Shown here one piece after another: positions 36,184-64,000 of a stretch of 64,000 bases of DNA. The position numbers and the translations under genes were made by a program. This DNA comes from Desulfobacterales bacterium (lineage in GTDB: Bacteria > Desulfobacterota > Desulfobacteria > Desulfobacterales > Desulfobacteraceae). The notes under the pieces were generated by a model. That model ran no database searches and was not told where the DNA came from. It saw nothing but the letters and a program-made list of their open reading frames with translations. The stretch lies in the NCBI GenBank assembly GCA_023143455.1, contig JAGLHT010000002.1, forward strand, positions 1 through 64,000. The letters are read 5' to 3'. The stretch's first letter is position 1; every line of letters begins with the position of its first letter.

Positions 36184-36228
36184 ATTTACCATCTCCTAGG
36201 GGAAAATCAATTTAGCTAAAATCAACTT

Positions 36229-36394
36229 CAGGCAGGTCTTCTGACTTACGGATCACCCTACTCTCTGTGTCTTCCCATGATCTTAAAAATTAAATCAGAC
36301 CACAGTGACAATATACAGATTTCGTCCCCGTATACAGCGGCGGGACCATCCCGGAATCACACCGGGTTCCCTTTTAAGGTTTTTTAAACCACCT
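36229..36394 (-). promoter_or_regulatory. cobalamin riboswitch
   Basis: On the minus strand the aptamer reads from AGGTGG near 36394 through GGGAACCCGGTGTGATTCCGG and GGTCCCGCCGCTGTA to the B12 box AGTCAGAAGACCTGCCTG (36229-36246). These are the conserved blocks of the cobalamin riboswitch in the standard order. A terminator hairpin follows within 50-80 bases, then the mini-BzaF and cobT genes. The expected behaviour, from the known family, is transcription termination on binding adenosylcobalamin. Confidence 0.95.
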
Positions 36395-36579
36395 AAAGCT
36401 AAATATATTTCTAAAGCCACAAATTTATTACTATATTTTACATTCAAATGTCAATAATATTTCCAACAAAAAAATGTTTGCTTTTAGTTGCAATCCACTA
36501 TATTATAGTTAATTATAATTCAGCAAAATTCGTCAAACTATTTAATTGGTCTTTAATCATAAGTCTATCGGAGGAAACC

Positions 36580-40016: not shown

Positions 40017-40017
40017 A

Positions 40018-40761
40018 TCAATAATTACCTGTAAGGCTTAAAAAGATATCTTCAAGGTTGTTTTTTCCATGTCTTTCATAAAGCTCAGACAAAGTTCCTG
40101 TTTCAATAAGCTCTCCTCTCAATATTATCCCTATGCGATGGGCAATATCCTCTGCCAAAGCCAGAATATGTGTGGTTAAAAAAATGGTCATCCCATTTCG
40201 TGCTTTCTCTTTTAAGAGATCCTTAATAAGGCGAATAGTATATGGATCAAGACCTATCAGTGGTTCATCAATAAAAAGAATCTCAGGGTCGTGCAAAAAA
40301 GTTGCGGCATAAATAAGTCTCTGGCGCAAACCATGGGAAAGATCTTTAACAAGTACATTTTTGTATTCTATTAATCCGAAAAGAGCAAAAGACTCTTCAA
40401 GTTTTTCATGTATACTTTCTTTATTAATATCGTATAATTCCCCGGTAAATTCAAAAAACTCTGTTGTTGTTAGTCTTTCATACAAATAAGGCATATCAGG
40501 TATATAACCAATGATTTTTTTGGATGAGAGATGATCTGTTTCAGGGTCTATTCCATTAATCAATATAGAACCTGAAGATGCACGCAATAAACCTGTGAGT
40601 ATTTTAATGGTTGTGGTTTTTCCGGCGCCGTTTGGTCCAAGAAAACAAAAAAGCTCACCTTTTCCAATATCTAATGTTAGATTCTTTACGGCTTCAAAAC
40701 TATGGGGATTTTTTGCATCATTTGAACCATAGGTTTTGGATAATTTGTTAATTTTTATCAT
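40018..40761 (-). CDS. ABC transporter ATP-binding protein
   Basis: A 247-residue ATPase with Walker A GPNGAGKTTT, signature LSHGLRQRL (LSGGQ variant with H-G-L-R), Walker B ILFIDEPLIGLD and the switch histidine in FLTTHILA. It groups with drug/polysaccharide or bacteriocin-type exporters of the CcmA/NatA kind. Its start overlaps the transglutaminase gene by 14 bases, and the permease gene begins one base after its stop, so the three are a coupled unit. Confidence 0.93.
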   Translation of the reverse strand: MIKINKLSKTYGSNDAKNPHSFEAVKNLTLDIGKGELFCFLGPNGAGKTTTIKILTGLLRASSGSILINGIDPETDHLSSKKIIGYIPDMPYLYERLTTTEFFEFTGELYDINKESIHEKLEESFALFGLIEYKNVLVKDLSHGLRQRLIYAATFLHDPEILFIDEPLIGLDPYTIRLIKDLLKEKARNGMTIFLTTHILALAEDIAHRIGIILRGELIETGTLSELYERHGKNNLEDIFLSLTGNY

Positions 40762-42481: not shown

Positions 42482-44782
42482 ATGAAACTTCGTAATGTTA
42501 TGGACAATTCTGTTGAACCCATTGTAATTTACAATAAAGACGGCCTTGTAAATTATATAAACCCTGCATTTGAAAGAGTTTTTGGGTGGTCCCCTGGCGA
42601 ACTTATGGGGAAAAAAATAGATTTTGTACCTAAAGAGGCAGAAGCCCAGACAAAAGAGGCTATTGCAAGCATTATGCGTGGAGAAACATGCTATGCCATG
42701 GAAACTCTACGGAAAACAAAAGACAATAAAATTCTTAATACCAGAGTTAGTGCAGCTACGATATTGAATGATACAGGAAAAATCGATGGCTTAATCGTGA
42801 ACCTCCAAGATATTACAAATATTATTCAGACGCGGGAGGCAGCTCAGAAAGCTGACCTTGCAAAAAGCGAATTTCTGTTAAATGTCAGCCATGAATTAAG
42901 AACACCAATGAATGGCATAATGGGGATGATAAATTTGTTACTCGACACAGAATTGGATAGCAATCAAATAGAACTTGCTGAAATTATACAAAAAAATGCT
43001 GATTCGCTTATGAATGTTATAAACAACATCCTTGATTTTTCTAAAATTGAAGCTGGCAAGCTTGAATACGAAACCATTAATTTTGATTTAAGAACTACTA
43101 TTGAAGAAGCTGAAAAACAAATATCAATAAAAACGAATGAAAAAAAACTTAAACTCGATATTTTTGTCCATCAGTTTGTCCCTTCTCTCATAAAAGGTGA
43201 TCCTCAACTATTACGCCAAATACTTCTTAACCTTGCAGACAATGCTGTAAAGTTCACAAATCAAGGCAAAATAAAAATTGCTGTGACTCTTGAAAAAGAG
43301 GACAAAACAAGTGCTGTTATTCGTTTTGAGATAATTGATAGTGGAGTTGGTATCAACTCTGATAAAAAAGATATAATTATTAAATCATTTTCCAAGGCAG
43401 ACGGATCAGTAACACGCGCGCAAGGAGATATCGGCTTAGGGCTTACCATTGCAAAACAGCTTGTCGCTTTGATGAATGGTAAACTAGGAGTTGAAAGTAA
43501 GCTAGGACATGGGTCAACTTTCTGGTTCACAGCTCTGTTTGAAAAACAATCACAAGGTTTATACAAAGAGACTGCAACTTCTGAAAACATTAAGGGAAAA
43601 AATATTCTAATCGTGGATGACAATACCACTAACCGCTTTTTTTTAAAAAAGCAGGTATCAGCTTGGGAATGTACTTTTGTTGAAGCAATAAATGGCAAAG
43701 ATGCTCTTGAAAAACTAGCTAATAACACTTCAAGGCAATTTGATATTGCACTCCTTGATATGCAGATGCCTGAGATGAATGGTGAATTTCTGGCACAAAA
43801 AATCAAATCAGATCCAAATTTTTCCAATATAATTTTAATTATGCTGACATCTGTTGGCAAAAAAGGCGATGTTGCAAGATTAAAAAAAATTGGCTGCGCT
43901 GCATATCTTCCAAAGCCTGTTAAACCACACCTGCTTTACGACTGCATTATCAAAGCTTTGACAGCATATAAACAGGGGAAAAATGAAATTATCACTCGCC
44001 ATTCCCTGATAGAGGGCAAAAAACAGAATGTTCATATACTGCTTGCCCAAAGCAACATTACAAGTCAAAAGATGTATTTAGACATTCTTGGTAAATCTGG
44101 TTACAAGGTTGATGTAGTTCCAAACGGAGTACAGGCAATAGAGGCATTTAAAACAGGAAAGTATAACCTGATATTAATGAATGAAAATATGCCAGAAATG
44201 AATGGGTTTGATGCTACAAAAAATATCCGAGCATTGGAAAAGCAACAAGGGTCAAAAAGGATTCCAATCCTTGGAATAACAGATAATACTATGAGTCAAG
44301 ATAGAAAGAAATGCCTTTCTTTAGGAATGGACGACCATCTCCCTAAAACTATAGATTCAATAAACCTCATTAAAACAATTGATAAATGGGCTGCACAAAA
44401 TCAAGTATTTTTAAAAACACTTTCTCCTAAAAACCAGGGTCTTATTTTTAATCTTGAAGATGCCCTTGAAAGAGCAATGGATGACAAATCATTTCTTGAA
44501 ATGATTTTAGAAGAATTTATGAGAGGATTACCACTTCATATTGATTCTATAAAAGAAGCAATATTAAAAGAGGACAAATACAGTTTAATAAGGGAATCTC
44601 ACTCTTTAAAAGGTTCCTCCTCAAATGTTGGTGCTATCGGGATAAGCTCAACAGCAGCAGAACTCGAAACTGCAGGAACAAGTGATGCCCTCAGCTCATG
44701 CACTAAAACATTAAGTAAGCTTGAAAACGAAGTTACACGTTTTTGCGAACATATAAACAAAATTGAATGGAGAAATATATGA
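42482..44782 (+). CDS. hybrid histidine kinase (PAS-HisKA-HATPase-REC-REC-Hpt)
   Basis: A 766-residue cytoplasmic phosphorelay protein with no membrane segment. PAS ~1-115; HisKA with H137 in NVSHELRTPMNG; HATPase ~235-355; REC1 ~374-495 with intact acidic pair (IVDDN) and phospho-acceptor D426 in LLDMQMP; REC2 ~512-635; Hpt ~670-766 with H707 in SHSLKGSSSN. REC2 has lost its chemistry: the acidic pocket reads LLAQSN and the acceptor position is N567 (LMNENMP), so it should not be phosphorylated. First gene of a four-gene operon; overlaps the next kinase gene by 4 bases (ATGA). Confidence 0.95.
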   Translation: MKLRNVMDNSVEPIVIYNKDGLVNYINPAFERVFGWSPGELMGKKIDFVPKEAEAQTKEAIASIMRGETCYAMETLRKTKDNKILNTRVSAATILNDTGKIDGLIVNLQDITNIIQTREAAQKADLAKSEFLLNVSHELRTPMNGIMGMINLLLDTELDSNQIELAEIIQKNADSLMNVINNILDFSKIEAGKLEYETINFDLRTTIEEAEKQISIKTNEKKLKLDIFVHQFVPSLIKGDPQLLRQILLNLADNAVKFTNQGKIKIAVTLEKEDKTSAVIRFEIIDSGVGINSDKKDIIIKSFSKADGSVTRAQGDIGLGLTIAKQLVALMNGKLGVESKLGHGSTFWFTALFEKQSQGLYKETATSENIKGKNILIVDDNTTNRFFLKKQVSAWECTFVEAINGKDALEKLANNTSRQFDIALLDMQMPEMNGEFLAQKIKSDPNFSNIILIMLTSVGKKGDVARLKKIGCAAYLPKPVKPHLLYDCIIKALTAYKQGKNEIITRHSLIEGKKQNVHILLAQSNITSQKMYLDILGKSGYKVDVVPNGVQAIEAFKTGKYNLILMNENMPEMNGFDATKNIRALEKQQGSKRIPILGITDNTMSQDRKKCLSLGMDDHLPKTIDSINLIKTIDKWAAQNQVFLKTLSPKNQGLIFNLEDALERAMDDKSFLEMILEEFMRGLPLHIDSIKEAILKEDKYSLIRESHSLKGSSSNVGAIGISSTAAELETAGTSDALSSCTKTLSKLENEVTRFCEHINKIEWRNI

Positions 44783-46047
44783 AAATCCTTATCGCAGAAG
44801 ATGACTATGTCTCGCGGCTTTTATTAAAAAAATCTATCTCGGCAATGGATCATGAAGTGCTTGAAGCTGTAGACGGGCAGCAAGGATTGGATTTGTTTCA
44901 AGAGAATGAACCATCCATGGTAATTACTGACTGGATGATGCCTAAAATAGATGGATTGGAACTGTGCAAAAAAATAAGATCTTCTGGCAAAAAAACTTAC
45001 ACCTATATAATGCTTTTAACAGCAAAAGATAAGATCTCTGATCTTGTAGAAGTATTTGCTGCAGGTGCAGACGATTATATCACAAAACCTTTCAAACCCG
45101 ACGAGTTAAAATCCAGAATCAAAACAGGAGAAAGAATTTTAACTTTAGAACACAACCATCACAAGCTACAACAAGAGATGACTGAAAAAAACTTTGAACT
45201 TGATAAGGCACTAAAGGATTTAAAAGAGACCCAGTCCCAGATACTGCAATCTGAAAAAATGGCTTCCATAGGCCAACTAGCTGCCGGTGTTGCCCATGAA
45301 ATTAACAACCCAATTGGGTTTGTAGGAAGTAATCTTTCAACTCTTACCGATTACTTAAAAGATTTTAATACGCTTTTAGGACATTACAATTTAATGAAAC
45401 AAAACCTAAAAGATACGGATTTGGAAAAATTACCCGACAACATAAAAATCATAACTGAAACCATAGAAAAGTTTGAAGAAGAAATTGATATTGATTACTT
45501 AAAAGATGATATTCCAGAACTTTTAGGTGATTGTGCTGAAGGGACAGAACGAGTAAGAAAAATTGTTGCTGATTTGAAAAATTTTGCCCACCCCGGAAAC
45601 GACAAAATAAAACTTGTGAATGTAAATCAAGGGATAGAATCAACATTAAACGTTGTAAGCAATGAGATTAAATATAAAGCCCAGGTTATAAAAGAATTTG
45701 GAGAAATTCCTCTTGTTGAAGGATATCCTCAGCAGATAAATCAGGTTTTTATGAATATTTTAGTAAATGCTGCCCAAGCCATTGAGGAAAAAGGGGAAAT
45801 CCATATTAAAACACAACAAGATAACAAAGACGTTAAAATAACGATTTCTGATAATGGATCTGGTATTGAAGAAAAAAATATTGCAAAAATATTTGATCCA
45901 TTTTTTACAACCAAACCTGTAGGGAAAGGAACTGGCCTTGGGATGAATATTGCCTATAATATCATTAAAAAACATAAAGGAACTATTGATATAAAAAGCA
46001 AAGTAGGGTCAGGAACAACCTTTACAATAATATTGCCGGGAAAATAA
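44779..46047 (+). CDS. receiver-histidine kinase fusion
   Basis: A 422-residue soluble protein with an N-terminal receiver (~1-120; D51 in ITDWMMP, ILIAEDD pocket) followed by a coiled linker and a kinase: H173 in [11 protein letters not shown], an N-box [14 protein letters not shown], and G-boxes DNGSGI and [13 protein letters not shown]. Start chosen at ATG 44779, which overlaps the previous stop (ATGA) and has GGAG six bases upstream; ATG 44767 is in the same frame but lacks such a site. Input is therefore phosphorylation of its own receiver, probably by the upstream hybrid kinase (inference). Three bases separate it from the next gene. Confidence 0.93.
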
Positions 46048-46050
46048 GTC

Positions 46051-46806
46051 ATGGAATTAGAATATGATGTTGAATATACAAACACAATTCTTTTAGTAGA
46101 TAATGAAAAAAGCATTTTAAATTCATTAAAACGTCTGTTAAGAAAAGAAGAATATAAAGTAATCACAGCCTCAAGTGGAAAAGAAGGACTTGAGATACTC
46201 AGAGACAATAATGTTCAGGTTATAATTTCTGACCAGAGAATGCCTGGAATGAGCGGGACTGAATTTTTTTCAAAAGTCATAGAAGAATTCCCTGATATTA
46301 TTAGAATCATTCTTTCCGGCTACACTGACGTTGATGTAGTAATAGATACTATCAATAAAGGCAGTATTTACAAATTTTTTCACAAGCCCTGGAATGATCA
46401 GGGCATAATTTTAGAAATACGGCAAGCTTTTGAGCATTATAAGCTTGTTCAGGACAACGCTAGGCTTAGCTTTCAAAACAAAGCTCTGCAATTATATCAT
46501 GCGGTTTTAGAAAATATTTCTTTTCCAATTATTGGAATTAATACAGAAAAAGCTATTGCTATTTATAACAGCATGGCATCAAAAATGCAGCTTGATAATG
46601 ATAACATTGATCTTAAAATCGGCTCAAAAATTTCAGATTCTTTTCCTGAAAACATAGTAAATATCATAAACAACTGCTTTGAAAACAATAAGTCAGAAAC
46701 CTTAGAATATTTAAATGAAAATAAAGGGTCATACAATATCACTTGTACACCATTTACAGGGCGTTTTTCAGGTAAGGGTGTTGTTCTGTCATTTATACGC
46801 CCATAA
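46051..46806 (+). CDS. response regulator with C-terminal PAS-like domain
   Basis: A 251-residue protein: receiver ~10-130 with acceptor D61 in ISDQRMPGMSG, and a C-terminal region ~145-251 that resembles a PAS fold (AVLENISFPIIGINTEKAIAIYNSMAS). The acidic pocket is LLVDNEK, with N18 where most receivers have a second aspartate. The SDQRMPGMSG..GY.D.D...IN.GSIYK...KPW pattern is the same receiver type as in the two FapA-operon regulators (50.5-54.1 kb), which suggests common kinases. No DNA-binding domain. Sits 3 bp after the previous kinase gene. Confidence 0.9.
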   Translation: MELEYDVEYTNTILLVDNEKSILNSLKRLLRKEEYKVITASSGKEGLEILRDNNVQVIISDQRMPGMSGTEFFSKVIEEFPDIIRIILSGYTDVDVVIDTINKGSIYKFFHKPWNDQGIILEIRQAFEHYKLVQDNARLSFQNKALQLYHAVLENISFPIIGINTEKAIAIYNSMASKMQLDNDNIDLKIGSKISDSFPENIVNIINNCFENNKSETLEYLNENKGSYNITCTPFTGRFSGKGVVLSFIRP

Positions 46807-46825
46807 ACAGATAAGAGGTTTTAAA

Positions 46826-48013
46826 ATGAATACAATCCTTGCAGTTGATGATGAAAAACAGAACCTTAATGCAATAAAACGTATTTTTAAAAAACACAAT
46901 CACAATCTCTTTTTTGCCTTAAGCGGTGAAGAAGCTTTAAGGCAAGTTACAAAAGAAAACCCCTCCATTGTTATTTTAGATATCATGATGCCAGGAATAG
47001 GCGGGATAGAAACTTGCTCAAGAATAAAAAAGATAGATAAAAACATCATGGTGCTTATAGTTTCAGGTAATGCAACTGTTGATGACAGACTTGAAGCTTA
47101 TACAGCTTTAGCTGATGATTATCTTGCCAAGCCCTATGACCCTGATGAACTTATTGCAAAGGTTGAAATTCTTTTAAGACTATATAATGCAAAACAAAAA
47201 TTAAAAGAAGTGAACCTGCACCTTGAAGAAACAGTAAAAAAAAGAACTGAAGAGCTTGTTACAAGAGAAAGACAGGCAATTGTAGGCAAAATGGTACAAG
47301 GGATTGTTCATAATCTCAGGGGGCCTGTTTCTGCTGCATACGGAAATGTTCAGTTAATGGAGATGAATTTTAACTCTTTTTTGGAATCTTTACCTTCAAT
47401 GGACGAAAAAACTTCTGCTCTTGCAGATAAAATTAAAAAAAGCAGCTCATATGTATTCAAAGCTATTGAAAAAACTTCTGAGCTTATTGATACCCTACTT
47501 ATTCAGGGCGGTTCAAACCCAAATGAAATAAAACAGTCTCTTAATTTAAATAACCTGATTGCAAAAGAACTTAAATTTATCCATTCTGAAACCATTATGA
47601 AATATAGAGTTAGGGTTAAGTTAAGTCTTGAAGATGATATTCCATTAATTAAAGGAATATATAGTGATTTTTCGCAAATTTTCTATAACATTGTAAATAA
47701 CGCTTGTGAGGCAATGAAAAATTCAGAAAATAAGCAGATTACTATTTCAAGTTCCAGCAGATCAACAGGAATTTCAATCTCTTTTTCAGATACAGGTTCG
47801 GGAATTGATCCTGACAAAATATCTTTGATCTTTGATCCGTTTTACTCAACCAAATCAAAATCAAGTGAAACCAAGTCAGGTTCAGGCTTAGGACTTTTTG
47901 TTTGTTCAAGACTTATGACTGAATATCAGGGTTTTATTGCTGTTAATAATAATGAACATGAAGGATCCACTTTCACAGTTATGATACCTTTATCTAATGT
48001 ATTCAAAACATAA
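46826..48013 (+). CDS. receiver-histidine kinase fusion
   Basis: A 395-residue soluble protein: receiver ~1-120 (ILAVDDE, acceptor D52 in ILDIMMP), coiled linker, then a kinase with the phospho-histidine region QGIVHNLRGPVSAAYG (H162; an HNLRGP variant of the H-box), N-box FSQIFYNIVNNACEA and DTGSGID/GSGLGLFV G-boxes. ATG 46826 preceded by AAGAGG is preferred; the frame is open 37 codons further upstream within the previous gene. Last gene of the operon; it converges with the receiver-FapA gene 25 bp away. Same architecture as the kinase at 44779. Confidence 0.92.
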   Translation: MNTILAVDDEKQNLNAIKRIFKKHNHNLFFALSGEEALRQVTKENPSIVILDIMMPGIGGIETCSRIKKIDKNIMVLIVSGNATVDDRLEAYTALADDYLAKPYDPDELIAKVEILLRLYNAKQKLKEVNLHLEETVKKRTEELVTRERQAIVGKMVQGIVHNLRGPVSAAYGNVQLMEMNFNSFLESLPSMDEKTSALADKIKKSSSYVFKAIEKTSELIDTLLIQGGSNPNEIKQSLNLNNLIAKELKFIHSETIMKYRVRVKLSLEDDIPLIKGIYSDFSQIFYNIVNNACEAMKNSENKQITISSSSRSTGISISFSDTGSGIDPDKISLIFDPFYSTKSKSSETKSGSGLGLFVCSRLMTEYQGFIAVNNNEHEGSTFTVMIPLSNVFKT

Positions 48014-48038
48014 TACTACAGACGATACAATTATTGCC

Positions 48039-50480
48039 TTATAAATCTGTAATTACCATCTCATAAAAACCAAGCGACCCCATCCCTTCATCAGTTTGTT
48101 TGATTTCCATTATTCTGCATCTTGAGGTAGATTCTTTAATAGTAAGAACCGAGGTAGGACCCTGAATTTTAGTTCCACTCATTATTTTTTTTGCAACTTT
48201 TACTACTGGTACAGGTTCTTTTTTTGAAGTAAACTCAAGTAATTTCTTTTTTTCTTCCATAAGTGCTTCATTTGTCTTGTCAAGCTGCCCAATTCTTTCT
48301 TTTTTCTGAACAATCTCCTGAGCAACAGCGTCCTGACGTTCAAACCCTCTGTTAATTTCGTCTTCAGCCTGCTTTGCCTGTTCCTGCATTTGTGCTTCAA
48401 GCTCAAAAACTTTTTGAAGAGCTGCTGCATTTCCTGATGCTTGTAAATCAAACTTCTTTTTTTCAACATCTTTTAATTTTACCTGGGTCCGATCCTGAGT
48501 ATAGGCATGTTCGGATATTGTTATATGAAGAGCCTGATCTTCTTTATCCAACTCTAATATTTCACTTCTCAAAATTGTGATAATATCAATATTAACTTTT
48601 AACTTTGAATCTATTTTTGCCACTAGAAAATTAGTGTGTTCATCTATTCCGACTTTTAATGTTGAAGGTCTTGAACCCATAGTTCCTATGTTCCCAGCAT
48701 CAATACCCATTTTAGCACTGATATCAGAAGCTATGATTGTGCCTCCCTCATTAATACATGCTCCACTCACTCTTATTTTTGAATCAAGTATTTCTTTTTG
48801 AACAATAAGATCACCAAACCCATATATCTTTGAATTATTTACATACTTTGCCTGGATATTTCCTTTAACTTTTATAAGATTGGCATCAACAATCCCGGAG
48901 CTGACACTAAGATCTCCTGTGAGATCAACTTCCGCACCTTCAATCTGCTCAATAGTAAGAGATGCTCCCTTAACAGTAAAGCCTTCTTTAATCATCCCTG
49001 AAACTATAATATTGCCGTCAAATTCAACATTTCCACTTTCAAAACACACATCACCATCTATTTTTAATTCTGGAAAAACTGAAATATTTCCTAAAGGATC
49101 AAGATTTGGTTGTCCATCTATATCAGCATAAATCTTAACTCCATCGTCTGACTCTCTCACACCTGTACCTGCCACAAAGACCATGTCTAAAGGCTCTTCT
49201 ACTGGCATAATCTCGCCTAAAACATTTATACCGGCAATTCCATCTTCCGGGAAAATTTTTGCTGCAAGGAATGTATCTTTTTCAACAAAGGGGATTTCAC
49301 CTCTCTCTTTAAAATCAATTCTGCCTTCAGAATCCACTTTTCCGGGCTGACGAAATTCTAATGGGAAATGGTAATTGATTTCAGCATTCTTTGGAGGCTT
49401 TGGCTTTCTTCCCTTAGCTATAATTATCGCATCATCTTCCGGGCTTGCCCCTAAAAGCCATGATTGAATAAAATCATCATCTTTAATGCCTACTTTAATT
49501 CCCTCTTGTTCTAATAATTCTTTAATTGTTATTATATTAATTCCATCTATATCAGAAGTTTTAAGCCTGATAAAAGCTTTTGTCTTATCCTCGGATAATG
49601 TAAGTTCAAAATCATTGCCATCACATGAACTTTCCTGAACTGCATCTAAAGCATCTACACCTAGAAATGCAGTTTTCCTTAAAAGCATAAAGCTTATTTT
49701 CAATATTTTATCAACCTCTTCAGAAGATTGATGTTTTTGAGAAGCTTTTTCTTTAATATCTTTATAAGAAAGCTCATCAAGCCCAATAAAATCACCAACT
49801 GCTTTTCCCAAGATCTCTTTTATTTGATCTTTTAGGATTGAAAACTCCCCTAACAAACCCTCTGGGGTAAGAGGTACATCTTTTTCTTTAATTACACCTT
49901 TTAAGGAAAGAGGTTCGTGCTTACTGTTATTAAGGCTGAGCTCTGATTCGGCCAACCTGATTTTATTTTTCCGTTTTCTTATTTTCTCAACATTTCGCTC
50001 TTCTTTTTCTTTTAATTGTTTTGCAATCTTATACAACTGATTATTCTGGTGTTGAGTTACTCTTATTAAATTCTGCTGTTTTTTTACTTCCTGAAACTGC
50101 CTACAGCCATTACTTGCTTGACTAATAAGATCTTCATCTTTAAAAGGAAGAGAGAGACAAGAATTTATCTCTGCCGTATTTATAGCTTTTGCAATTATAT
50201 CAATGCTTAAGGAATCGGTAATGAGTACCCTTTGAGTATCAGGCGAAAGCTCTTTAATTTTTTCAAGAACCTCATCACCCTTCATCTTAGGCATTTTATA
50301 GCTTACAATCGCTACAGCATACGGTTTTATGTCAGGACTTTCAAGTTCTGAAAAAGCAGCAGATGAAGATTCAAAACAAGATACTACATAATTTTGAGAT
50401 GTTAAAAGTTTTTCAATTCTTAGTCGCAAATCACCATCTGCTTCCACAACAAGAATTTTATACTTTTGACTTTCTTCCAT
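48039..50480 (-). CDS. pseudo-receiver fused to FapA/DUF342
   Basis: An 813-residue soluble protein. Residues ~8-130 fold like a receiver, but the acceptor position is S60 (AIVSYKMPKMKG, where functional relatives read SDQRMP) and the pocket reads VVEADGD, so phosphorylation is unlikely. A charged helical stretch (~140-210) follows, then a FapA N-region and the DUF342 core (FVEKDTFLAAKIFPEDGIAGINVLGE and a beta-helix with repeated G.I.V.G strands, ~440-620), a long coiled coil (~640-755) and a C-terminal beta piece with KIMSGTKIQGP. Third gene of a minus-strand operon, 36 bp after its paralog. Lacks the MshEN-like repeats. Confidence 0.9.
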   Translation of the reverse strand: MEESQKYKILVVEADGDLRLRIEKLLTSQNYVVSCFESSSAAFSELESPDIKPYAVAIVSYKMPKMKGDEVLEKIKELSPDTQRVLITDSLSIDIIAKAINTAEINSCLSLPFKDEDLISQASNGCRQFQEVKKQQNLIRVTQHQNNQLYKIAKQLKEKEERNVEKIRKRKNKIRLAESELSLNNSKHEPLSLKGVIKEKDVPLTPEGLLGEFSILKDQIKEILGKAVGDFIGLDELSYKDIKEKASQKHQSSEEVDKILKISFMLLRKTAFLGVDALDAVQESSCDGNDFELTLSEDKTKAFIRLKTSDIDGINIITIKELLEQEGIKVGIKDDDFIQSWLLGASPEDDAIIIAKGRKPKPPKNAEINYHFPLEFRQPGKVDSEGRIDFKERGEIPFVEKDTFLAAKIFPEDGIAGINVLGEIMPVEEPLDMVFVAGTGVRESDDGVKIYADIDGQPNLDPLGNISVFPELKIDGDVCFESGNVEFDGNIIVSGMIKEGFTVKGASLTIEQIEGAEVDLTGDLSVSSGIVDANLIKVKGNIQAKYVNNSKIYGFGDLIVQKEILDSKIRVSGACINEGGTIIASDISAKMGIDAGNIGTMGSRPSTLKVGIDEHTNFLVAKIDSKLKVNIDIITILRSEILELDKEDQALHITISEHAYTQDRTQVKLKDVEKKKFDLQASGNAAALQKVFELEAQMQEQAKQAEDEINRGFERQDAVAQEIVQKKERIGQLDKTNEALMEEKKKLLEFTSKKEPVPVVKVAKKIMSGTKIQGPTSVLTIKESTSRCRIMEIKQTDEGMGSLGFYEMVITDL

Positions 50481-50516
50481 TTTTTAAGCCTGAGTTATAA
50501 ACATTTTTTGTAAATT

Positions 50517-53396
50517 TTAAGACAATGTTTGATGGGTTATCAGTTTTGGATTGTCAGGATTATCAGAATCTATCTCGACAAATTTTGACATGCCAAGATC
50601 ATTTTGAATCATCATTGTTGCCTGTGTTCCTGTTATTCTGGTTCCAGAGTATATTTTTTTATTTACTTTAAGAGTCGGGTTTGGTTCTGTCTCAGATAAT
50701 GCTTCTATTGACATCTCTTTTTCCTTTTTTAAACCTGAAAATTCAACATTTAACTTGGCAATTTGAATTTCATGTTCTTCAATTTTATTTAATATTGAAT
50801 CTTGTTCCTCAAAAATACCCTTTATCCTTTCGTCAGCTTGTTTTATACCATTTTCAAGATCTTTAACAAGCTTTTGTTTCTCTTCGCTGTCCTTTGTCTC
50901 ACCAATCTTTTTTTCTGTAAAATCTATCTTTTTTATTAACTTTTCCTGGGCAAAAGTTTTGGCTGCAATATCAACATGAAGGGCGTTGTTCTCATCACTC
51001 ATCTCCATTTTTTCATTAATTATAATATCAAGGTCCCTTTGTATTTTTTCCATCTGTTTATCATATTTTTCAGCAATCCATTGGATATGATCATCAGCAC
51101 CTGCTTTTATTGTGGAAGATTCTGCTTTCTCAGTACCAATCTGCTTAACATTAAAGCCCATTCTCGCGGATATTGTGGACCCTGTTATTCTGCCGGCCTC
51201 ATTATTCATCTCTCCGCTTATAGCAATTTTAGATTCCATTATCTCCCTTGTAACCATCATGTTACGATAGCCAAAGATTTTTGAATTATTAACAAATTTA
51301 GCCTGAACACTTCCCTGGGTTTGGATATCTGCGTTAACTATTCCATTTGAAACCTTAAGATCTCCTTTAATTCTTATTATTCCACCATTTATTTCATTGG
51401 CTATAAGTTCTTCGCATTCCACCATAAAGCCCTCTTTAACAGCACCTCCGACAACAACATTTCCTTTAAAATTAATATTACCTGTTTTAAAATCAACATC
51501 GCCTTTAACAGTAAACTGCTCTAACACGGAAACAACTCCTTTAATATCAATACTTGGCTGTCCTGAAATAAGTGAAGTAATCTTTAAGCCATCCTCGGAT
51601 AACTCAGCCCCGTCACTACACTCTAATGTAACATCAACCACATCCCCTACAAGTAAAGTCTCACCAAAAATATCAAGTCCAGACTTTGCGTGCTCCATGG
51701 GATGTTTTTCAGCAAGAAGCTGACCTTTTTTAACAAAAGGAGAATCACCTCTTGAAGTAAAATCAATAGAGCCATCTTCATTAATAATACCTGCAGATTC
51801 ATGCTCAGTATTAAAGTGATAGACAATTTCAGCGGGCTTTCCTATTTCAACAGGTTTACCAATGGCAACATTCAATTTTTCCGAAGGGTCCTTACAGTTT
51901 TTAATAAAATCTCTAATGATTTTATCATCCACAATCCCGTGCTTTATGCCACGTTTTTTAATAAGTTTCTTTATGGGTTCGATATCTTCAGTACCAAGAA
52001 CAACCTCAGGAACCCTTATAAAAGCCACTACTCTGTCCTCGGAAATGCGCAAATCAACAAATGCACCAAATTGTGAATCAAATGCAGAAGATTCATCAAT
52101 ATTGCTCTTCTTACCGGTCCTGTCCTGGCTTTCCATTACTTCATCTCTGAGTTCCGGGGCAATTACTTCAGATTCCACAAGAAGATCACCTATAAGAATT
52201 GCAACTCCGCTCTCCTCAAAATTATTCAATTGTTTACGAAATGCCCGGTCAACATCTTTTTTGGTTGCTATCTCTCGGCTTACAAGTTCTTTTGCAAAAT
52301 CACGATCCAACAATCTTATTTCGATCAATGCCAGTTTAGCAAAGATACGACTTAAATCTTTTCTTCTAAGGAATTCATTTGTTACAAGGACTTTATCAAT
52401 TGTCAGGCCTGTAGATTGTTCAGCCTCTTTTGTCTCTAGTTCATCTCTTGCCTTTTCAAGTTCACCCTTTGTAACATACCCATCATTGAAAGCAAGATCT
52501 CCGAAATCAGGCACTTCTTCATAATCATCAATCACAACACCAACTGCGGGTTCAGATCCAATACCGCAAATTACAGGCTCAGCTTTTTGCACAACATTTT
52601 CAATAATAATATCTATGATATCATATACTTCTTCTTCAAATTCACCTGAAGGTTCATATCCAGTATGAATTTTTTCAGGAGAAAAGGGAATTTTATTTTT
52701 TTGGGTTATTGTATCCATCATAGAGTTTGCTTCTTCTTTGGCTAGGGACATTGCCTGTACAAGATTTTCCTTATTTAAAGTAATGGTTCTTGAAAGAAGC
52801 TCATCAAGCCCTAAATAAGTCTCTTTAAATTCTGCTGCTGCTTTTGCCTGGGCTAAAGATTCTTTAAGTTCTTCGACCTCTTGGGTTTTTTTTTCAATTT
52901 TATCAGTAAAAGCTTTATCAGTTTTTTTCTGCTGACTTGCAAGCTTAAAAAGCTTAGCATTTTGATACTTTGTGACTTTAAAAAGCCGCTTTCTTTCCTG
53001 GAACTTTTGAAAAATTTCAAATTCACCCATTATCCTCAACAACAAATCATCGTTCTCCCATGGTTTAGAAAGATACTGGTGTATTGAACCTTCATTTACG
53101 GCTTCGATTATTGCATCAAAGTCAGAATAACCTGTAATGAGAATTCTTCTGGATTCAGGGCTGATAAGAATACTCTTCTCAAAAAACTCACTTCCCTGCA
53201 TTCCAGGCATACGCTGGTCAGAAAGTATCAGAAAAAATTTTTCTCCGGAGCTTTCTAACAAACCGATTCCCTGTTCAGCATTAAGTGCAGAAATAACTTT
53301 ATTAAACCCTTTTCTTTTTAAAACCCTTCGCATGTTTTTTACAATAGGTTCATCATCATCAACCACTAAAATTGCATAGTCATTAATATCGCCCAT
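50517..53396 (-). CDS. receiver - MshEN-like repeats - FapA/DUF342 fusion
   Basis: A 959-residue soluble protein. Receiver ~8-130 with intact VVDDDE pocket and acceptor D60 in LSDQRMPGMQG; coiled coil ~145-200; about four short helical repeats ~305-440 (such as FGDLAFNDGYVTKGELEKA and IGDLLVESEVIAPELRDEV) like those in CheA and the 719-residue FapA; then DUF342/FapA (FVKKGQLLAEKHPMEHAKSGLDIFGE, beta-helix ~590-760), a coiled coil ~775-900 and a C-terminal KIYSGTRITG piece. Follows a response regulator gene by 21 bp. A phosphorylation-controlled FapA-type scaffold is the simplest reading; the cellular output is unknown. Confidence 0.9.
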   Translation of the reverse strand: MGDINDYAILVVDDDEPIVKNMRRVLKRKGFNKVISALNAEQGIGLLESSGEKFFLILSDQRMPGMQGSEFFEKSILISPESRRILITGYSDFDAIIEAVNEGSIHQYLSKPWENDDLLLRIMGEFEIFQKFQERKRLFKVTKYQNAKLFKLASQQKKTDKAFTDKIEKKTQEVEELKESLAQAKAAAEFKETYLGLDELLSRTITLNKENLVQAMSLAKEEANSMMDTITQKNKIPFSPEKIHTGYEPSGEFEEEVYDIIDIIIENVVQKAEPVICGIGSEPAVGVVIDDYEEVPDFGDLAFNDGYVTKGELEKARDELETKEAEQSTGLTIDKVLVTNEFLRRKDLSRIFAKLALIEIRLLDRDFAKELVSREIATKKDVDRAFRKQLNNFEESGVAILIGDLLVESEVIAPELRDEVMESQDRTGKKSNIDESSAFDSQFGAFVDLRISEDRVVAFIRVPEVVLGTEDIEPIKKLIKKRGIKHGIVDDKIIRDFIKNCKDPSEKLNVAIGKPVEIGKPAEIVYHFNTEHESAGIINEDGSIDFTSRGDSPFVKKGQLLAEKHPMEHAKSGLDIFGETLLVGDVVDVTLECSDGAELSEDGLKITSLISGQPSIDIKGVVSVLEQFTVKGDVDFKTGNINFKGNVVVGGAVKEGFMVECEELIANEINGGIIRIKGDLKVSNGIVNADIQTQGSVQAKFVNNSKIFGYRNMMVTREIMESKIAISGEMNNEAGRITGSTISARMGFNVKQIGTEKAESSTIKAGADDHIQWIAEKYDKQMEKIQRDLDIIINEKMEMSDENNALHVDIAAKTFAQEKLIKKIDFTEKKIGETKDSEEKQKLVKDLENGIKQADERIKGIFEEQDSILNKIEEHEIQIAKLNVEFSGLKKEKEMSIEALSETEPNPTLKVNKKIYSGTRITGTQATMMIQNDLGMSKFVEIDSDNPDNPKLITHQTLS

Positions 53397-53417
53397 AATT
53401 CTATCCTATTACTTTGG

Positions 53418-54137
53418 TTAGCTTGCCTCTTCAGGCATTTCAAAGCCATTTCGTGTTGCTATATCTTTAAATTGTTCATAAAGCTCTGATAATAATGCAG
53501 AATAAAGAAAATTAAGTTTTCCTTCCTCCAGCATTTTATATTCCTTGAGTACTGATTCTATTTCGTTTACATAATCTCTGTTTTCAAAACCTTGATCGTA
53601 TCTTTGGTTTAGCTGTTCAACTTGCTTATCTAATTGTGTAATGATTTTTTCATTAGCTGCTGAACTATTTTTTAAATCTGTATTTAATTGAAAAAGTTTA
53701 GAGTTTTGATCCTTGGCAAGCTTAAAAAGTCTATCATTTTCCATTGCAAGTTCAAATTGATTCAATCCCGACTTAATCTTTCCTTCAAAATCTTTATTAT
53801 CCCAGGGCTTACTTATATATTTGTGTATGGAACCATTGTTCACAGCCTCTGTAATTGCATCCATATCTGAATATCCCGTTAAAAGAAACCGAATGGTATC
53901 AGGAGAAATTTCCTTTGCTTTGCCAAGAAATTCAGACCCTGACATCCCCGGCATTCGTTGATCTGAAATAATAAGAGAAAAAGGTTTTGATGCCGATTGT
54001 ATTCTTTCAAGACCGGCTTGACCCGATTCCATATAAACATATTTCACACCAATGCCCTTAAGGAACCTGCCCAAAGATTTTCCAACCTGCTCTTCATCAT
54101 CAACAACCAGCACTGTATGGTCAAATTTTTCTACCAT
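53418..54137 (-). CDS. response regulator with coiled-coil tail
   Basis: A 239-residue protein: receiver ~8-130 (VVDDEE, acceptor D59 in IISDQRMPGMSG, then GYSDMDAITEAVNNGSIHKYISKPW) and a helical C-terminus (~135-239) with heptad-like pattern and no known domain. First gene of the operon leading to the two FapA fusions. The receiver closely resembles that of the 959-residue fusion, and the helical tail including RLFKLAKDQNSKLFQL matches the equivalent LFKVTKYQNAKLFKLA of that protein, so one probably arose from the other. It could compete for phosphate or hetero-oligomerise through the coil. Confidence 0.9.
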   Translation of the reverse strand: MVEKFDHTVLVVDDEEQVGKSLGRFLKGIGVKYVYMESGQAGLERIQSASKPFSLIISDQRMPGMSGSEFLGKAKEISPDTIRFLLTGYSDMDAITEAVNNGSIHKYISKPWDNKDFEGKIKSGLNQFELAMENDRLFKLAKDQNSKLFQLNTDLKNSSAANEKIITQLDKQVEQLNQRYDQGFENRDYVNEIESVLKEYKMLEEGKLNFLYSALLSELYEQFKDIATRNGFEMPEEAS

Positions 54138-54329
54138 CTTACCCCCTGATTATTCTCATGATTACAATCACTGCGATATTTTTTATGTCATGTAACTAAA
54201 AAATTATTGATATTTAAGTTTTATTATAATAGTATTAAGAAAATGTTTCAATAAAAATAATTATTTTTTAAAAAAATCAATTAAAATCGTCAAGGCGCTT
54301 ACACTGCCTGCTATTTTTGAGGAATGCAT

Positions 54330-55079
54330 ATGAAATCAATCCCGCAAATGGCTGAAGAGCTGGACATTTCGTCCGGAACAATCAGAGAATATTTACAGCG
54401 ATTTGAAGAGTTTTTTGCCGATCCTGTAGAACATGAAGGTGTTAAGGAATACCCTCCTGAAACATCAGAGCTTGTTAAAAAAATCTACGGCTATTATCAA
54501 AATAGTGGAATGACAAAAGAAGAAATCAGAGTAAAATTAGGCGCAGCTATGGTCTTAGAAGCTAATCCTGAGCTTGCGGCACTCCAGGCCCAGGCTGTTC
54601 CCATGGACATGGAAAAATTTGATGCACTGGGAGAAAAAATTGAGAAGCTTACGATAGCGATGGAAAAGCTAACTGAAGTATTTTCAAGTGGTGGTGCGAA
54701 TTTAAATGCTCCAAAAGAACCTTCTGACAATGAAACTATTGATGCCATAAATGCTCAAATAACTGATATTCTGGAATTAACAAAAGATAATGACCCTAAA
54801 AAAACAGAACAAAATGTCCTGGATGCTGACGGTACAATTATTTTCTCCTTTGGCAAACTCACAGGAAATGCTAAAGCTGCCTTAAAATTGTCAAAAATAA
54901 ATAAGAAACCATGGCTTCATATTGATCTTCAAACTGAGAAATCCCCGGCCAGGGCAGTCAGAACCTGGCTTGCACAATCTGATATTTCTGTGCTCAATGT
55001 GGCAGGAAGAAGCGCAAGCAAAATTCCAGGACTTAAAAAAACTGTAAATGATATTATTGCTTCGATATTAAACCAATGA
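54330..55079 (+). CDS. MerR-type HTH fused to a YpsA/SLOG-like (molybdenum-carrier-type) domain
   Basis: A 249-residue protein. Residues ~1-75 form a MerR-like winged HTH (IPQMAEELDISSGTIREYLQRF, then a MTKEEIRVKL helix); ~85-115 is a short helix. From ~155 the sequence reads NVLDADGTIIFSFGKLTG, KPWLHIDL, AVRTWLAQSDISVLNVAGRSASKIPG, the signature of the circularly permuted YpsA family listed as putative molybdenum carrier, a SLOG-superfamily Rossmann fold predicted to bind nucleotide-like ligands. The two halves together suggest a ligand-responsive regulator. ATG 54330 has GAGGA six bases before it; ATG 54324 is too close. Divergent from the receiver-FapA operon, so that operon could be its target. 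Confidence 0.82.
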   Translation: MKSIPQMAEELDISSGTIREYLQRFEEFFADPVEHEGVKEYPPETSELVKKIYGYYQNSGMTKEEIRVKLGAAMVLEANPELAALQAQAVPMDMEKFDALGEKIEKLTIAMEKLTEVFSSGGANLNAPKEPSDNETIDAINAQITDILELTKDNDPKKTEQNVLDADGTIIFSFGKLTGNAKAALKLSKINKKPWLHIDLQTEKSPARAVRTWLAQSDISVLNVAGRSASKIPGLKKTVNDIIASILNQ

Positions 55080-59457: not shown

Positions 59458-59513
59458 ATATCAATAATAGAAAAATTGCGACCTCCTAACATTATAACTT
59501 GAAAGAGAAAAAA

Positions 59514-59936
59514 ATGAATCTTGTATTATTTATCCATCAAGACTCTTCAAAAAAAGGCAAAGCCCTTAAAACTGCCATCAAAAATAATGTTGGCGGAGGC
59601 GAATCTCTTACATTCCAGACTGTTAATAAGCTCGAATCAAGATTGAAAAAAACTTCTTCTACTGAAAAAGAAATATTAATACTTCTTGCTGAATCTAAAA
59701 CAAGATTAGACGAATTAACCTCTTTGATTTATTTACTGGAAAATAAACGTATCATATTAATCCTTCCTGATGAATCAAAAGAAACTATTTCTAAAGCAAG
59801 TCAGTTTTTCCCAAGATTTTTTACTCCCATTAGCTGCAAATATGATGATCTTTGCAGCGTAATAAATAAAATGATGGGGCAGGAAATAATAAATAACAAT
59901 ATTAAAGGAGGAGACGACAATGGCAGAACCTGCTGA
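59514..59936 (+). CDS. small hypothetical protein at the head of the che operon
   Basis: A 140-residue protein of unknown function, starting MNLVLFIHQDSSKKGK. Alternating hydrophobic strands (LVLFI, ILILLAES, RIILILPD) and helices suggest a small alpha/beta, possibly receiver-like, fold, but no phospho-acceptor motif is visible. Its last 17 bases overlap the start of cheW, so it is translationally coupled to it and probably part of the signalling unit. An in-frame TTG at 59499 is possible but less likely. Confidence 0.7.
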   Translation: MNLVLFIHQDSSKKGKALKTAIKNNVGGGESLTFQTVNKLESRLKKTSSTEKEILILLAESKTRLDELTSLIYLLENKRIILILPDESKETISKASQFFPRFFTPISCKYDDLCSVINKMMGQEIINNNIKGGDDNGRTC

Positions 59937-60435
59937 AGCAATGGATCAGGCAATTAGATCCATGACAGTAAAAACAGGAAAGTATTTAACTTTCTATCTT
60001 AAAGAAGAAGAATATGGAATTGGCATATTAAAAGTCAAAGAGATAATCGGAATGATGCCAATCACATCTGTCCCAAGAACACCGGGATATGTTAAGGGTG
60101 TAATCAATCTTAGGGGCAAGGTAATCCCGGTAATAGACTTAAGAGCCAAATTCGATATGGAGACCATCGAATATACAGACCGCACCTGTATTATTGTTGT
60201 GGAAATTGATTCAGAATCATCCACGGTGCTTATTGGTATTGTTGTTGATGCTGTGTCAGAAGTCTTAAATATCAAAGAGGAAGAAATAGAAGAAACTCCA
60301 ACATTTGGCACTAAGCTAAATACTGAATACATCCTTGGTATGGCTAAAATGTCAGGCGTAGTCAAGATTCTTCTTAATATTGACAGGGTATTGACAACTC
60401 TAGAAATTTCAACCGTTGAAAAGGTTGCTAAATAA
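59920..60435 (+). CDS. cheW: chemotaxis coupling protein CheW
   Basis: A 171-residue CheW scaffold that links chemoreceptors to CheA. After a ~20-residue leader the SH3-like fold begins (YLTFYLKEEEYGIGILKVKEIIG), with TSVPRTPGYVKGVINLRGKVIPVIDLR and GIVVDAVSEVL, all standard. A strong ribosome binding site (GGAGGAG) lies inside the end of the upstream gene. A chemoreceptor and cheA follow. No cheR, cheB or cheY appears before the window ends. Confidence 0.96.
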   Translation: MAEPAEAMDQAIRSMTVKTGKYLTFYLKEEEYGIGILKVKEIIGMMPITSVPRTPGYVKGVINLRGKVIPVIDLRAKFDMETIEYTDRTCIIVVEIDSESSTVLIGIVVDAVSEVLNIKEEEIEETPTFGTKLNTEYILGMAKMSGVVKILLNIDRVLTTLEISTVEKVAK

Positions 60436-60482
60436 TATTTATTTTATCAAAAAAATTAAAACCAAAAACTGGAGGATAACAA

Positions 60483-62399
60483 ATGTTTAAGAACATGAGA
60501 CTTGGTACTAAAATTGTAAGTGGATTCGCCATCGTACTTATTTTTCTTTGTGTAGTTTCTTTTATTGGCTTTAACAGCCTGTCAGGAGTTGTTGGCAGAG
60601 TGGATAAAGCAGATGATGTAAACCGTATCGTCAAAGACATTTTAGAAACCCGCCAACAGGAAAAAAACTATATTATTCGAGGAGATGAGACCTATATAAA
60701 AGAAGTAGAAGAGCATGCCCTGAAACTTATCGAACAAGCCACAGAAACAAAAAATAAATTTGATCAAAAAGCCAACAAAGATCAGATGGATCAAGTGATG
60801 GAAAAAGTAAATGATTATTCCAAAGCATTTAAAGAATATGTCGATCTGGATAATCAGAAAGATAAGACCATGGAAGAAATGCGGGCCAGGGCAAGGGAAG
60901 CTTTGGCACAGGCTGAGGCCATCCGTGCAGATCAAAAACAAAAGCTTGACCAAGCAATGGAGCAGGATGCCGGCCATGATGTTATTGATGACAGACTGAC
61001 TAAGGCAGATGATGCCAACCGGATAATCAAATGGTTTATTGATGCTCGTAAAAACGAGAAAGAATTTATCATATCCAATGGAGAAACAAAATGGCAGGAG
61101 TATGTTGATAAAGACATAGCACAGATATTGGAGTTGTCAAATGATCTGAAATCACGGTTTACAAACACTAATAATATTGCACAGGCAAATGCTGTTATTG
61201 CCGCTGTCCAGGCATATGATAAAGCTTTTGATTCTTTTGCAGAGCTTATGAAAAAACAAGTAGTCTCTGACACTGATATGGTCGCAGCAGCAAGGAGCGT
61301 CAATGAAGTGTGTACAGCAGCAAGAGCTGATCAAAAAGCAAAAATGGACAGCCAGATTTCAACTGCAAACATTGTAATACTTACAGGAACTATTATTGCT
61401 CTTGTGCTTGGTATGTTCTTTGCGTTTATCATTACAAGAGGCATTACCAAGCCCATTAATGCAATCACTCAGGGTATGAACGAAGGCGCAAACCAGGTGG
61501 CATCAGCAGCAGGTCAGGTATCGTCTGCCAGTCAGTCTCTTGCAGAAGGTTCATCAGAGCAGGCAGCATCCATTGAAGAAACATCTTCATCCATGGAAGA
61601 AATGTCTTCCATGACAAAAAAGAATGCAGAGAATGCCAGCCAGGCCGATAATCTGATGCAGGATACAAACCGCATAGTAAAAACTGCCAATGAATCAATG
61701 GAACAACTCACCCATTCAATGGAAGATATTTCTAAAGCCAGTGAAGAAACATCAAAAATTATTAAAACAATTGATGAAATCGCTTTCCAGACAAATCTTC
61801 TGGCTCTTAACGCGGCTGTTGAAGCAGCTCGGGCAGGCGAGGCAGGAGCAGGATTTGCAGTTGTTGCAGAAGAAGTAAGAAACCTTGCAATGAGATCTGC
61901 TACTGCTGCAAAAAACACAGCTGAGCTTATTGAAGGTACTGTCAAAAAGGTTGGTGATGGATCAAGCCTTGTAGCAAAAACAAATGAAGCCTTTAGACAG
62001 GTTGCAGAAAGCACAGGCAAGGTTGGAGAGATTGTTGCAGAGATTTCAGGGGCATCTGAGGAACAGTCCAAGGGAATTGAACAGGTAAATATTGCTATTA
62101 CTGAGATGGATAAGGTAGTTCAACAAAACGCTGCTAATGCTGAAGAATCAGCTTCTGCATCTGAAGAAATGAGTGCCCAGGCAGAAACACTTAAAGATTA
62201 TGTTGGCGATCTTGTCGCACTTGTATCAGGCAAGCAAAATAGTACCGAGCATATTAAAAAAAGTATTAAACCAATTAAGCCTGTACATGCACATGTTCAA
62301 ACGCCGAAAAGGAAAGCTTTGCTCTCCCAGTCAAAAGAAGTAAGACCCGATCAGGTAATACCTTTTGATGACGATGGCGATGATTTTAAAGATTTTTAA
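60483..62399 (+). CDS. methyl-accepting chemotaxis protein with HBM sensor domain
   Basis: A 638-residue chemoreceptor. Membrane helix ~10-30; periplasmic helical bimodular (HBM) domain ~35-285 with two similar modules ([19 protein letters not shown] and [20 protein letters not shown]); membrane helix ~293-316; signalling domain with tip [25 protein letters not shown]. Only the first HAMP helix is seen ([16 protein letters not shown]): the sequence goes straight into [21 protein letters not shown], so HAMP is shortened. HBM receptors in Pseudomonas bind organic acids; the ligand here is unknown. It ends in an acidic tail rather than a CheR-docking pentapeptide. Confidence 0.95.
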
Positions 62400-62412
62400 T
62401 ATAATTGTTTAA

Positions 62413-62445
62413 AAAGGGCAGAATAATAATTTCTGCCCTTTACTT
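62413..62445 (+). terminator. rho-independent terminator after the HBM chemoreceptor gene
   Basis: AAAGGGCAGAA (62413-62423) pairs with TTCTGCCCTTT (62431-62441), 11 bp with a 7-base loop, followed by a T-rich stretch. It lies between the receptor and cheA, so cheA is expressed by read-through or from its own start. Confidence 0.75.
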
Positions 62446-62513
62446 TATTAAAATAAATTATTATAATTATGTTCATTCATTCATTCCGGTAACTTTAAAA
62501 AAAAGACAAGCAA

Positions 62514-64000
62514 ATGACTTATAAAATCATTCAAGAACTTGTTGAGAAGCTTTCTTTGGAGTTTGTATTAATAGATTCGTCAGAACCAGAAGCTTTATCT
62601 GAATTATTGCCAATCCTTCAAAAGCTCCACGAAAACAGCATGAAACTATCTCTTGAAACTTTGCCTGAAGGGGCGTTAAAAGCTGAAAAAATAATAACAA
62701 ACATTGCTCAAGATGAAAACTCAAATATTGAAGAAGGCTTTGAGACCATAAACAGTATTATATCTGAGATGGAATCATCCATGCGTGAGCTCAAAAATAA
62801 TACGAAAAAAGAGTCTATTGATACACCTGTTATTGATACTGATATAAAACATGAGGATATTGAGTCGGATGACGAAGATAGCAATACTACACAGATAAAA
62901 AAAGTAGAAAAATCCCTTGAAAAATTTTCGAAATTGATTGCGGGTTTCTGCCCGGGAGAAATCCCTGACTTAGGTGCTATGCTCAATGTTTGTGACGAAA
63001 TTGCTGCTGATGCAAAATTGTTTTATTCTGATACGTTTGAAAAACTAGTCTTGTCATGCAAAGAGTATGTAGGCTCAATGACCCTTGAAAATATTGAGAA
63101 CACTAGACCCATTGAAGAAGGCCTAACCCTTCTTCAAGCGTTACTAAATCATATAAAAACAGGAAAGGATTTCGCCTTTGATATTTCTGATGTAGAGGAA
63201 CTTCTATCATCAGGATTATTCACAGATAATAATGAAGCTATAAGCCCTCAAAAAGAGATTAAAGCACCTCAAGAGAAACAAGAGTCAAAACAGGATCAAA
63301 GAAATATGGAAGAACAGTGTGGGCCTGAAAAAATTTCTGATGATGATTTGGAGATATTAGTAGATTTTATATCTGAAGCAACTGAAAACCTTGACAGCAT
63401 AGAGATTTCTCTTCTTAAGCTTGAGCATGACCCTGGCGATAATAAAATTATTAACAATATTTTCCGTCCTTTCCATACTATTAAAGGGGTATCTGGATTT
63501 CTCGGCTTACAAAAGATCAACACACTTTCCCACGCAACCGAGAATCTTTTAGACAGTGCAAGAAGTGGTGATTTTCTTATTAATGAAGCTGCTACAGATA
63601 TTATTCTTGAATCTGTAGACACCTTAAAGCAACTTTTATCAAGAGTTGGACAAGGGATTGAAAAAGGCTTAAAACAGCTGGATAATGATATTGATGTTAA
63701 TATTTTAATAAATAAACTTCAAAAAATTCAAATACGTCTTACACAAGGTGATAAACAACCATTGGGAGAAATCCTTGTTGAAAAAGGAATTGTTGAAGAC
63801 AAAGACATTACTGAAGCCTTGGAATTTCAAATAGATGCTCCTGACAAAAAACTTGGTGAAATTCTCATTGATGAAAAGAAAGCCACACCCAATGAGATTG
63901 CATCTGCACTTATTGCTCAAAGCCCAAAAAAGAAACAAATTGCAACACAGGTTAAAGTTAGTACAGAAAAACTTGATAACCTGGTTGATTATGCAGGAGA
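62514..64000 (+). CDS. cheA: chemotaxis histidine kinase CheA with MshEN-like repeats (3' truncated by window edge)
   Basis: The frame is open from ATG 62514 to the last base (495 codons). Residues ~1-270 are acidic and helical without a recognised domain. The Hpt domain covers ~275-385, with phospho-histidine H321 in FHTIKGVSGFLGL. Then two short helical repeats, LGEILVEKGIVEDKDITEAL (from 417) and LGEILIDEKKATPNEIASAL, of the kind also found in the FapA proteins. The final residues KVSTEKLDNLVDYAGE begin the CheA dimerisation domain; the ATPase and CheW-like domains must lie beyond the window. Domain order is unusual in placing repeats between P1 and P3. Confidence 0.93.
   Translation, partial: MTYKIIQELVEKLSLEFVLIDSSEPEALSELLPILQKLHENSMKLSLETLPEGALKAEKIITNIAQDENSNIEEGFETINSIISEMESSMRELKNNTKKESIDTPVIDTDIKHEDIESDDEDSNTTQIKKVEKSLEKFSKLIAGFCPGEIPDLGAMLNVCDEIAADAKLFYSDTFEKLVLSCKEYVGSMTLENIENTRPIEEGLTLLQALLNHIKTGKDFAFDISDVEELLSSGLFTDNNEAISPQKEIKAPQEKQESKQDQRNMEEQCGPEKISDDDLEILVDFISEATENLDSIEISLLKLEHDPGDNKIINNIFRPFHTIKGVSGFLGLQKINTLSHATENLLDSARSGDFLINEAATDIILESVDTLKQLLSRVGQGIEKGLKQLDNDIDVNILINKLQKIQIRLTQGDKQPLGEILVEKGIVEDKDITEALEFQIDAPDKKLGEILIDEKKATPNEIASALIAQSPKKKQIATQVKVSTEKLDNLVDYAG

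Follow-up and report, generated by a model that had tools for sequence, protein, structure and literature searches.

A gene module of receiver-FapA fusions and a conserved pseudo-receiver in a Desulfobacterales bacterium, with a probable link to flagellar motility

In a window of 64,000 nucleotides from a Desulfobacterales bacterium (positions 1 to 64,000 of contig JAGLHT010000002.1, assembly GCA_023143455.1), we found an operon of three genes, here called A, B and C, in which receiver domains are joined to coiled coils and, in B and C, also to FapA (DUF342). Judged by their residues, the receivers of A and B are intact and that of C is a conserved pseudo-receiver; kinase genes face the operon, and its relatives occur almost only in flagellate genomes. 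We consider it probable that A, B and C constitute a FapA module under two-component control, which acts on the assembly, placement or function of flagella. FapA is a widespread protein family, and a natural receiver fusion of this kind, kept with kinases and almost only in flagellates, would show where phospho-signals enter FapA and open its role to testing. The features of the region are the following.

42482..44782, plus strand: K1, soluble hybrid kinase PAS-HisKA-HATPase-REC-REC-Hpt (Pfam)
44767..46047, plus strand: K2, REC-HisKA-HATPase kinase, 426 aa, the most conserved facing kinase (Pfam)
46051..46806, plus strand: R3, receiver (SDQRMPGMSG), 251 aa, receiver-only by Pfam
46826..48013, plus strand: K4, REC-HATPase kinase, likely start 46826 (Pfam)
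48014..48038, no strand: 25-bp gap separating the convergent operons, about 20 bp in several relatives (ORF coordinates)
48039..50480, minus strand: C, pseudo-receiver, FapA_N, FapA solenoid and coiled coil, 813 aa (Pfam, receiver alignment)
50517..53396, minus strand: B, intact receiver, coiled coil, GspE/MshE-N-like helical domain, FapA_N, FapA solenoid, coiled-coil hairpin and C-terminal beta cap, 959 aa (Pfam, profile comparison, AlphaFold)
53418..54137, minus strand: A, receiver with intact Asp and Lys plus coiled coil, 239 aa, first gene of the operon (Pfam Response_reg, 1.7e-16)
54223..54251, minus strand: sigma-70-like promoter TTGAAA-17-TATAAT upstream of A (predicted from sequence)
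54324..55079, plus strand: gene divergent from A, for a protein with a MerR-like HTH and a circularly permuted YpsA (SLOG) domain (Pfam)
59499..64000, plus strand: start of a che operon, with a 145-aa ORF, CheW (59920-60435), MCP (60483-62399) and CheA (from 62514, running beyond the window end)

The open reading frames of 813, 959 and 239 aa lie on the minus strand where a first-pass annotation of this DNA had placed them, and the gaps of 21 bp between A and B and 36 bp between B and C fit one operon, as expected from its proposal that the receiver-coiled-coil gene is cotranscribed with both fusions. The two large fusions themselves were confirmed by Pfam: B and C each carry Response_reg, FapA_N (PF20250) and the FapA beta-solenoid (PF03961), while A carries Response_reg alone. 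All these Response_reg and FapA matches were far over the curated cut-offs and far beyond chance, and B and C, which score about 99-124 bits where the FapA models (PF20250 and PF03961) require 27 and 31, belong to the FapA family (DUF342). The notion that FapA is a single gene did not hold here, since five genes of the source genome exceeded the family cut-off, namely B, C, a receiver-like FapA beside an A-like gene (contig C16) and two FapA genes without a receiver. A simple hydropathy scan detected no transmembrane segment in any of the seven proteins A, B, C, K1, K2, R3 and K4.

Alignment across relatives separated the three receivers clearly. The phospho-accepting Asp was present in 34 of 38 A proteins and the Lys in all 38; in B, the Asp was found in all proteins and the Lys in all sequences covering the site, a count that leaves out one receiver-less paralogue which fell into the B set. 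C proteins, in turn, had the Asp in 1/33 and the Lys in 0/33, and thus C is a conserved pseudo-receiver as a class. A and B have the residues of a phosphorylatable receiver (acidic pair, phospho-Asp, Thr/Ser and Lys), and C lacks the complete set, its motif in the window reading VSYKMPKMKG, with no Asp and no Lys. Going by these residues, the usual phosphorylation chemistry should be possible for A and B only, among the receivers of A, B and C. The first-pass annotation had attributed one receiver type, SDQRMPGMSG, to both operons; this is true of A, B (SDQRMPGMQG) and the 251-aa R3, and is not true of C or of the three kinases. A pseudo-receiver regularly encoded beside intact partners bears on how pseudo-receivers are controlled, which is an open question (PMC12632262).

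The facing operon runs from 42482 to 48013 on the plus strand and ends 25 bp from the end of C. It had been described as an operon of three soluble kinases and a PAS regulator; the kinases and, by hydropathy, their solubility were borne out, while Pfam detected no PAS part in R3, and the fourth gene more likely starts at 46826 than at 46715. The second receiver of K1 is degenerate (NENMP), and the position of R3 is held in relatives by a REC-HDOD protein of about 398 aa. Just upstream of this operon, on the opposite strand, lie genes for a transglutaminase-like protein and an ABC transporter pair (38352-42295, minus strand). Elsewhere in the window, a cobalamin riboswitch (36214-36411, minus strand, 117 bits) stands upstream of minus-strand genes that include one for a CobT-type phosphoribosyltransferase (34583-35665).

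Conservation of the kinases beside the fusions had been named beforehand as a check able to refute the proposed system, and K2 is indeed kept beside the module, 55-70% identical, in eight other genomes of four other genera (G010, G018, G029 and G034, of one genus; G032 and G221, of another; G047 and G205), usually convergent with C and about 20 bp apart. K1 relatives (43-46% identical) are found beside the module in G010, G018 and G029. Among 58 relatives, K2 orthologues (E <= 1e-140) were present, physically close, in 7/8 genomes with a close B (at least 57% identity) and in 0/50 others; genomes with a more distant B (34-44%: G004, G006, G012, G016) had no K2 at E <= 1e-140. Overall, B orthologues were 34-68% and C relatives 35-49% identical. 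A scan of named genomes with B matched mostly bare receivers, because the search words lay in the receiver and linker. One genome outside the family of the window, G047, has the full set with a B 67% identical, perhaps acquired by transfer. The divergent MerR/cpYpsA neighbour is also conserved beside the module in several genera (54-61% identical in L044-L047, L156, L173 and L174).

Orphan kinases and receivers are abundant in this region and its relatives, so that one might see here a generic signalling cluster, with receivers shuffled onto FapA and A, B and C acting as phosphate sinks or similar, with no FapA output. However, A lies directly upstream of C, or of B and then C, in nearly all of the about 30 loci read, and both the good conservation of the FapA core and the uniformity of the pseudo-receiver pattern speak against such a cluster, which we regard as distinctly unlikely.

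C-type proteins (matches at E <= 1e-80 among 241 sampled genomes of the class, the receiver part being checked in some of the 33 positive genomes) share with flagellar proteins their occurrence in flagellate genomes. Within the family of the window, C-type genes were present in 33/39 genomes with FlhA versus 0/12 without it (Fisher 1.2e-7, a value that overstates independence because the genomes are related). This family is probably the Desulfobacteraceae, since in one of its members, G025, the coordinates of matches agree with those in a Desulfotignum metagenome bin (L097). The same held inside single genera, with 7/8 versus 0/7 genomes in genus g14 and 2/3 versus 0/4 in genus g13; six genomes of the family have FlhA without C. 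Similarly, FapA of any kind and FlhA agreed in 52 of 58 relatives (37 with both, 15 with neither, 6 discordant). Outside the family, the receiver part of C was absent from the matches listed except for G047. One genome that is 70% complete (G006) has B, and FlhA was not found in it. In the single-contig genome G027 (L163), the A and C genes are broken and FlhA is split between frames, which would fit joint decay and could be sequencing error.

The possibility that the module regulates type IV pili or surface movement (twitching or gliding) derives from the middle of B. Residues about 290-430 match the N-termini of receiver-less FapA proteins (hhalign, 99.2%), and these in turn match the N-terminal domains of PilB/MshE (profile comparison, E 3.6e-5 to 2e-4), to which B itself gives a weak direct match (E 0.012). 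The B middle helices and the receiver-less FapA N-termini may thus be related to the MshEN-like domains of GspE, PilB and MshE; B has no ATPase and, as seen by eye in the alignment, keeps the LG/IGD core of the RLGxxL c-di-GMP ligand motif without an evident Arg. Against a pilus role, there is no pilus gene nearby. Almost the whole class has PilM (228/241), including each of the 12 family members without FlhA and C, so that neither genome incompleteness nor pili explains the pattern of C. On this gene distribution we rejected a pilus link, and consider a role in pilus regulation very unlikely.

An AlphaFold model of B residues 185-959 (58 sequences, pLDDT 85) predicted helices, a domain of mixed type, an extended series of short strands, a helical hairpin and a small beta cap; a full-length model from 7 sequences was poor (pLDDT 47) and was discarded. 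Searches of PDB structures with the 185-959 model matched only helical hairpins (residues 589-715) and were uninformative on the FapA core, a match to the hairpin of H. pylori HP0958 being indistinguishable from hairpin background; likewise, the core sequence gave only coiled-coil matches among the PDB matches listed. Several variants of FapA architecture were seen in relatives: an 845-aa protein in which a diverged FapA_N accompanies GspE-N-like repeats, encoded near the A-B-C operon of G034 (L046:2735-5272), zinc-ribbon-like N-termini (CxxC...CxxC) on receiver-less FapA proteins (L036, L037, L116), weakly similar (E 0.01) to a zinc domain from a gliding protein of Myxococcus, and, in a Geobacteraceae bin (L060:6148-8575), a REC-HD gene overlapping a receiver-less FapA gene, as unfused neighbours.

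The first-pass annotation had reported no flagellar or pilus structural gene here; none is adjacent, but motility genes are nearby, since the window contains CheW, an MCP and the first part of CheA, with the rest of the che operon beyond its end. About 5 kb from the A-B-C module, the complete operon reads CheW-MCP-CheA-CheD-HDOD-CheY-CheX-CheB-CheR, from about 59.5 kb to about 69.2 kb of the contig; the 145-aa ORF at its head (59499-59936) had no Pfam or NCBIfam match. In G012 the che genes are inside the module, in the order A-B-CheW-CheA-CheY-C (L053:6673-17015), and in G216 and G218 CheR, CheB and kinases lie upstream of A-B. In other relatives che genes are not adjacent to the module, and thus the che link is recurrent and not constant.

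These che genes near or inside the module also favour a different view, in which A, B and C would mark a pole for the placement of chemosensory arrays or other machines, as FrzS and AglZ do for motility in Myxococcus, with flagella as only one client. The build of C, a pseudo-receiver with a coiled coil, is that of FrzS, whose receiver controls polar localisation (PMC1974792), and the zinc-ribbon-like N-termini on other FapA proteins of the order are weakly like a gliding-protein domain. On the other hand, the presence of the module tracks FlhA closely and both FrzS and AglZ lack FapA, which makes such a polarity scaffold rather unlikely in our assessment. Because loss of FlhA also removes other motility genes, the link of C may be to motility generally, chemotaxis included.

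The promoter of A does not look like that of a flagellar regulon. Neither the region preceding A in the window nor about 38 related ones showed a sigma-54 or sigma-28 consensus, and several relatives have a site similar to the sigma-70-like one (TTGAGA...AAAAT), so that membership of such a regulon was rejected on promoter grounds. This promoter type and the lack of an adjacent flagellar structural gene speak against a flagellar role. Conversely, flagellate genomes have the module while the pilus-bearing non-flagellates of the family do not, and this, together with the nearby che operon, suggests a tie to flagellar motility in place of the unspecified role at a pole or surface. Of the earlier proposal, a phosphorelay controlling a FapA-type protein is thus still the best reading, with K2 conserved beside the module, and the pole or surface role gives way to flagellar motility.

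In the mechanism that we infer for a FapA module acting on flagella, K1 (with its Hpt), K2 and K4 would act on A and B by phosphorylating their receivers. C, which has a dead receiver and would not undergo the usual phosphorylation, would follow A and B as its partners, joining them through the coiled coils of FapA and the receiver-coil region that all three share. The phosphorylation state of A and B would then decide how a mixed FapA scaffold assembles, which partners it binds or where it is placed, and its output would affect flagellar assembly, placement or performance together with the nearby che operon. A more specific version, which we put forward only tentatively, is that two phosphorylatable receivers and an obligate pseudo-receiver make A-B-C a switch, by which the facing kinases, possibly with CheA, determine how a cytoskeleton-like beta-solenoid assembles, or where it is positioned, at the base of the flagellum. 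If true, the output of this two-component system would be a structural scaffold, and not transcription or an enzyme.

In the open-access full-text literature we found no description of a receiver-FapA fusion, which may be listed elsewhere without a role, nor of any system of such composition, in agreement with the first-pass annotation; the pseudo-receiver literature examined (PMC12632262 included) does not mention FapA, and 'DUF342' in papers on ZitP was a false match to DUF3426. Among known regulators, the receiver and the coil after it at the N-termini of A, B and C had their best NCBIfam match in NF053512 (REC-coil-HD-GYP, RpfG/NosR type), far below cut-off. Contrary to those regulators, Pfam detected no HD or HD-GYP domain in A, B or C; nothing follows the coil in A and FapA follows it in B and C, as though A had lost the HD-GYP output and B and C had replaced it with FapA. 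Atypical receivers acting as heterodimers are known from the pair WhiI/BldM in Streptomyces development (PMC12632262), which bind DNA, whereas no DNA-binding domain is present here. FrzS and AglZ of Myxococcus xanthus resemble C in combining a pseudo-receiver with a coiled coil and serve motility (PMC1974792; PMC12632262), and FrzS may be taken as a precedent for a pseudo-receiver governing place (PMC1974792). They have a long coil and no other output domain, and act with pili or in gliding, whereas C ends in FapA and has intact partner receivers, A and B, in its own operon. In Borrelia burgdorferi, FapA (bb0267) belongs to the same family and is encoded in a flagellar operon (PMC11607428), as a single gene beside flagellar genes and with no receiver reported. 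A further parallel is FapA of Vibrio vulnificus and V. cholerae (VCA1085), a flagellar protein of the same family that binds EIIAGlc only when EIIAGlc is dephosphorylated (PMC6877527); a connection of Vibrio FapA with HubP is cited in PMC8789113. In Vibrio the phospho-signal comes from a separate PTS protein, while here the FapA proteins themselves carry receivers and are encoded in a multi-gene set that has kinases of its own, and the Vibrio FapA-EIIAGlc pair is a precedent, in another form, for phospho-control of FapA.
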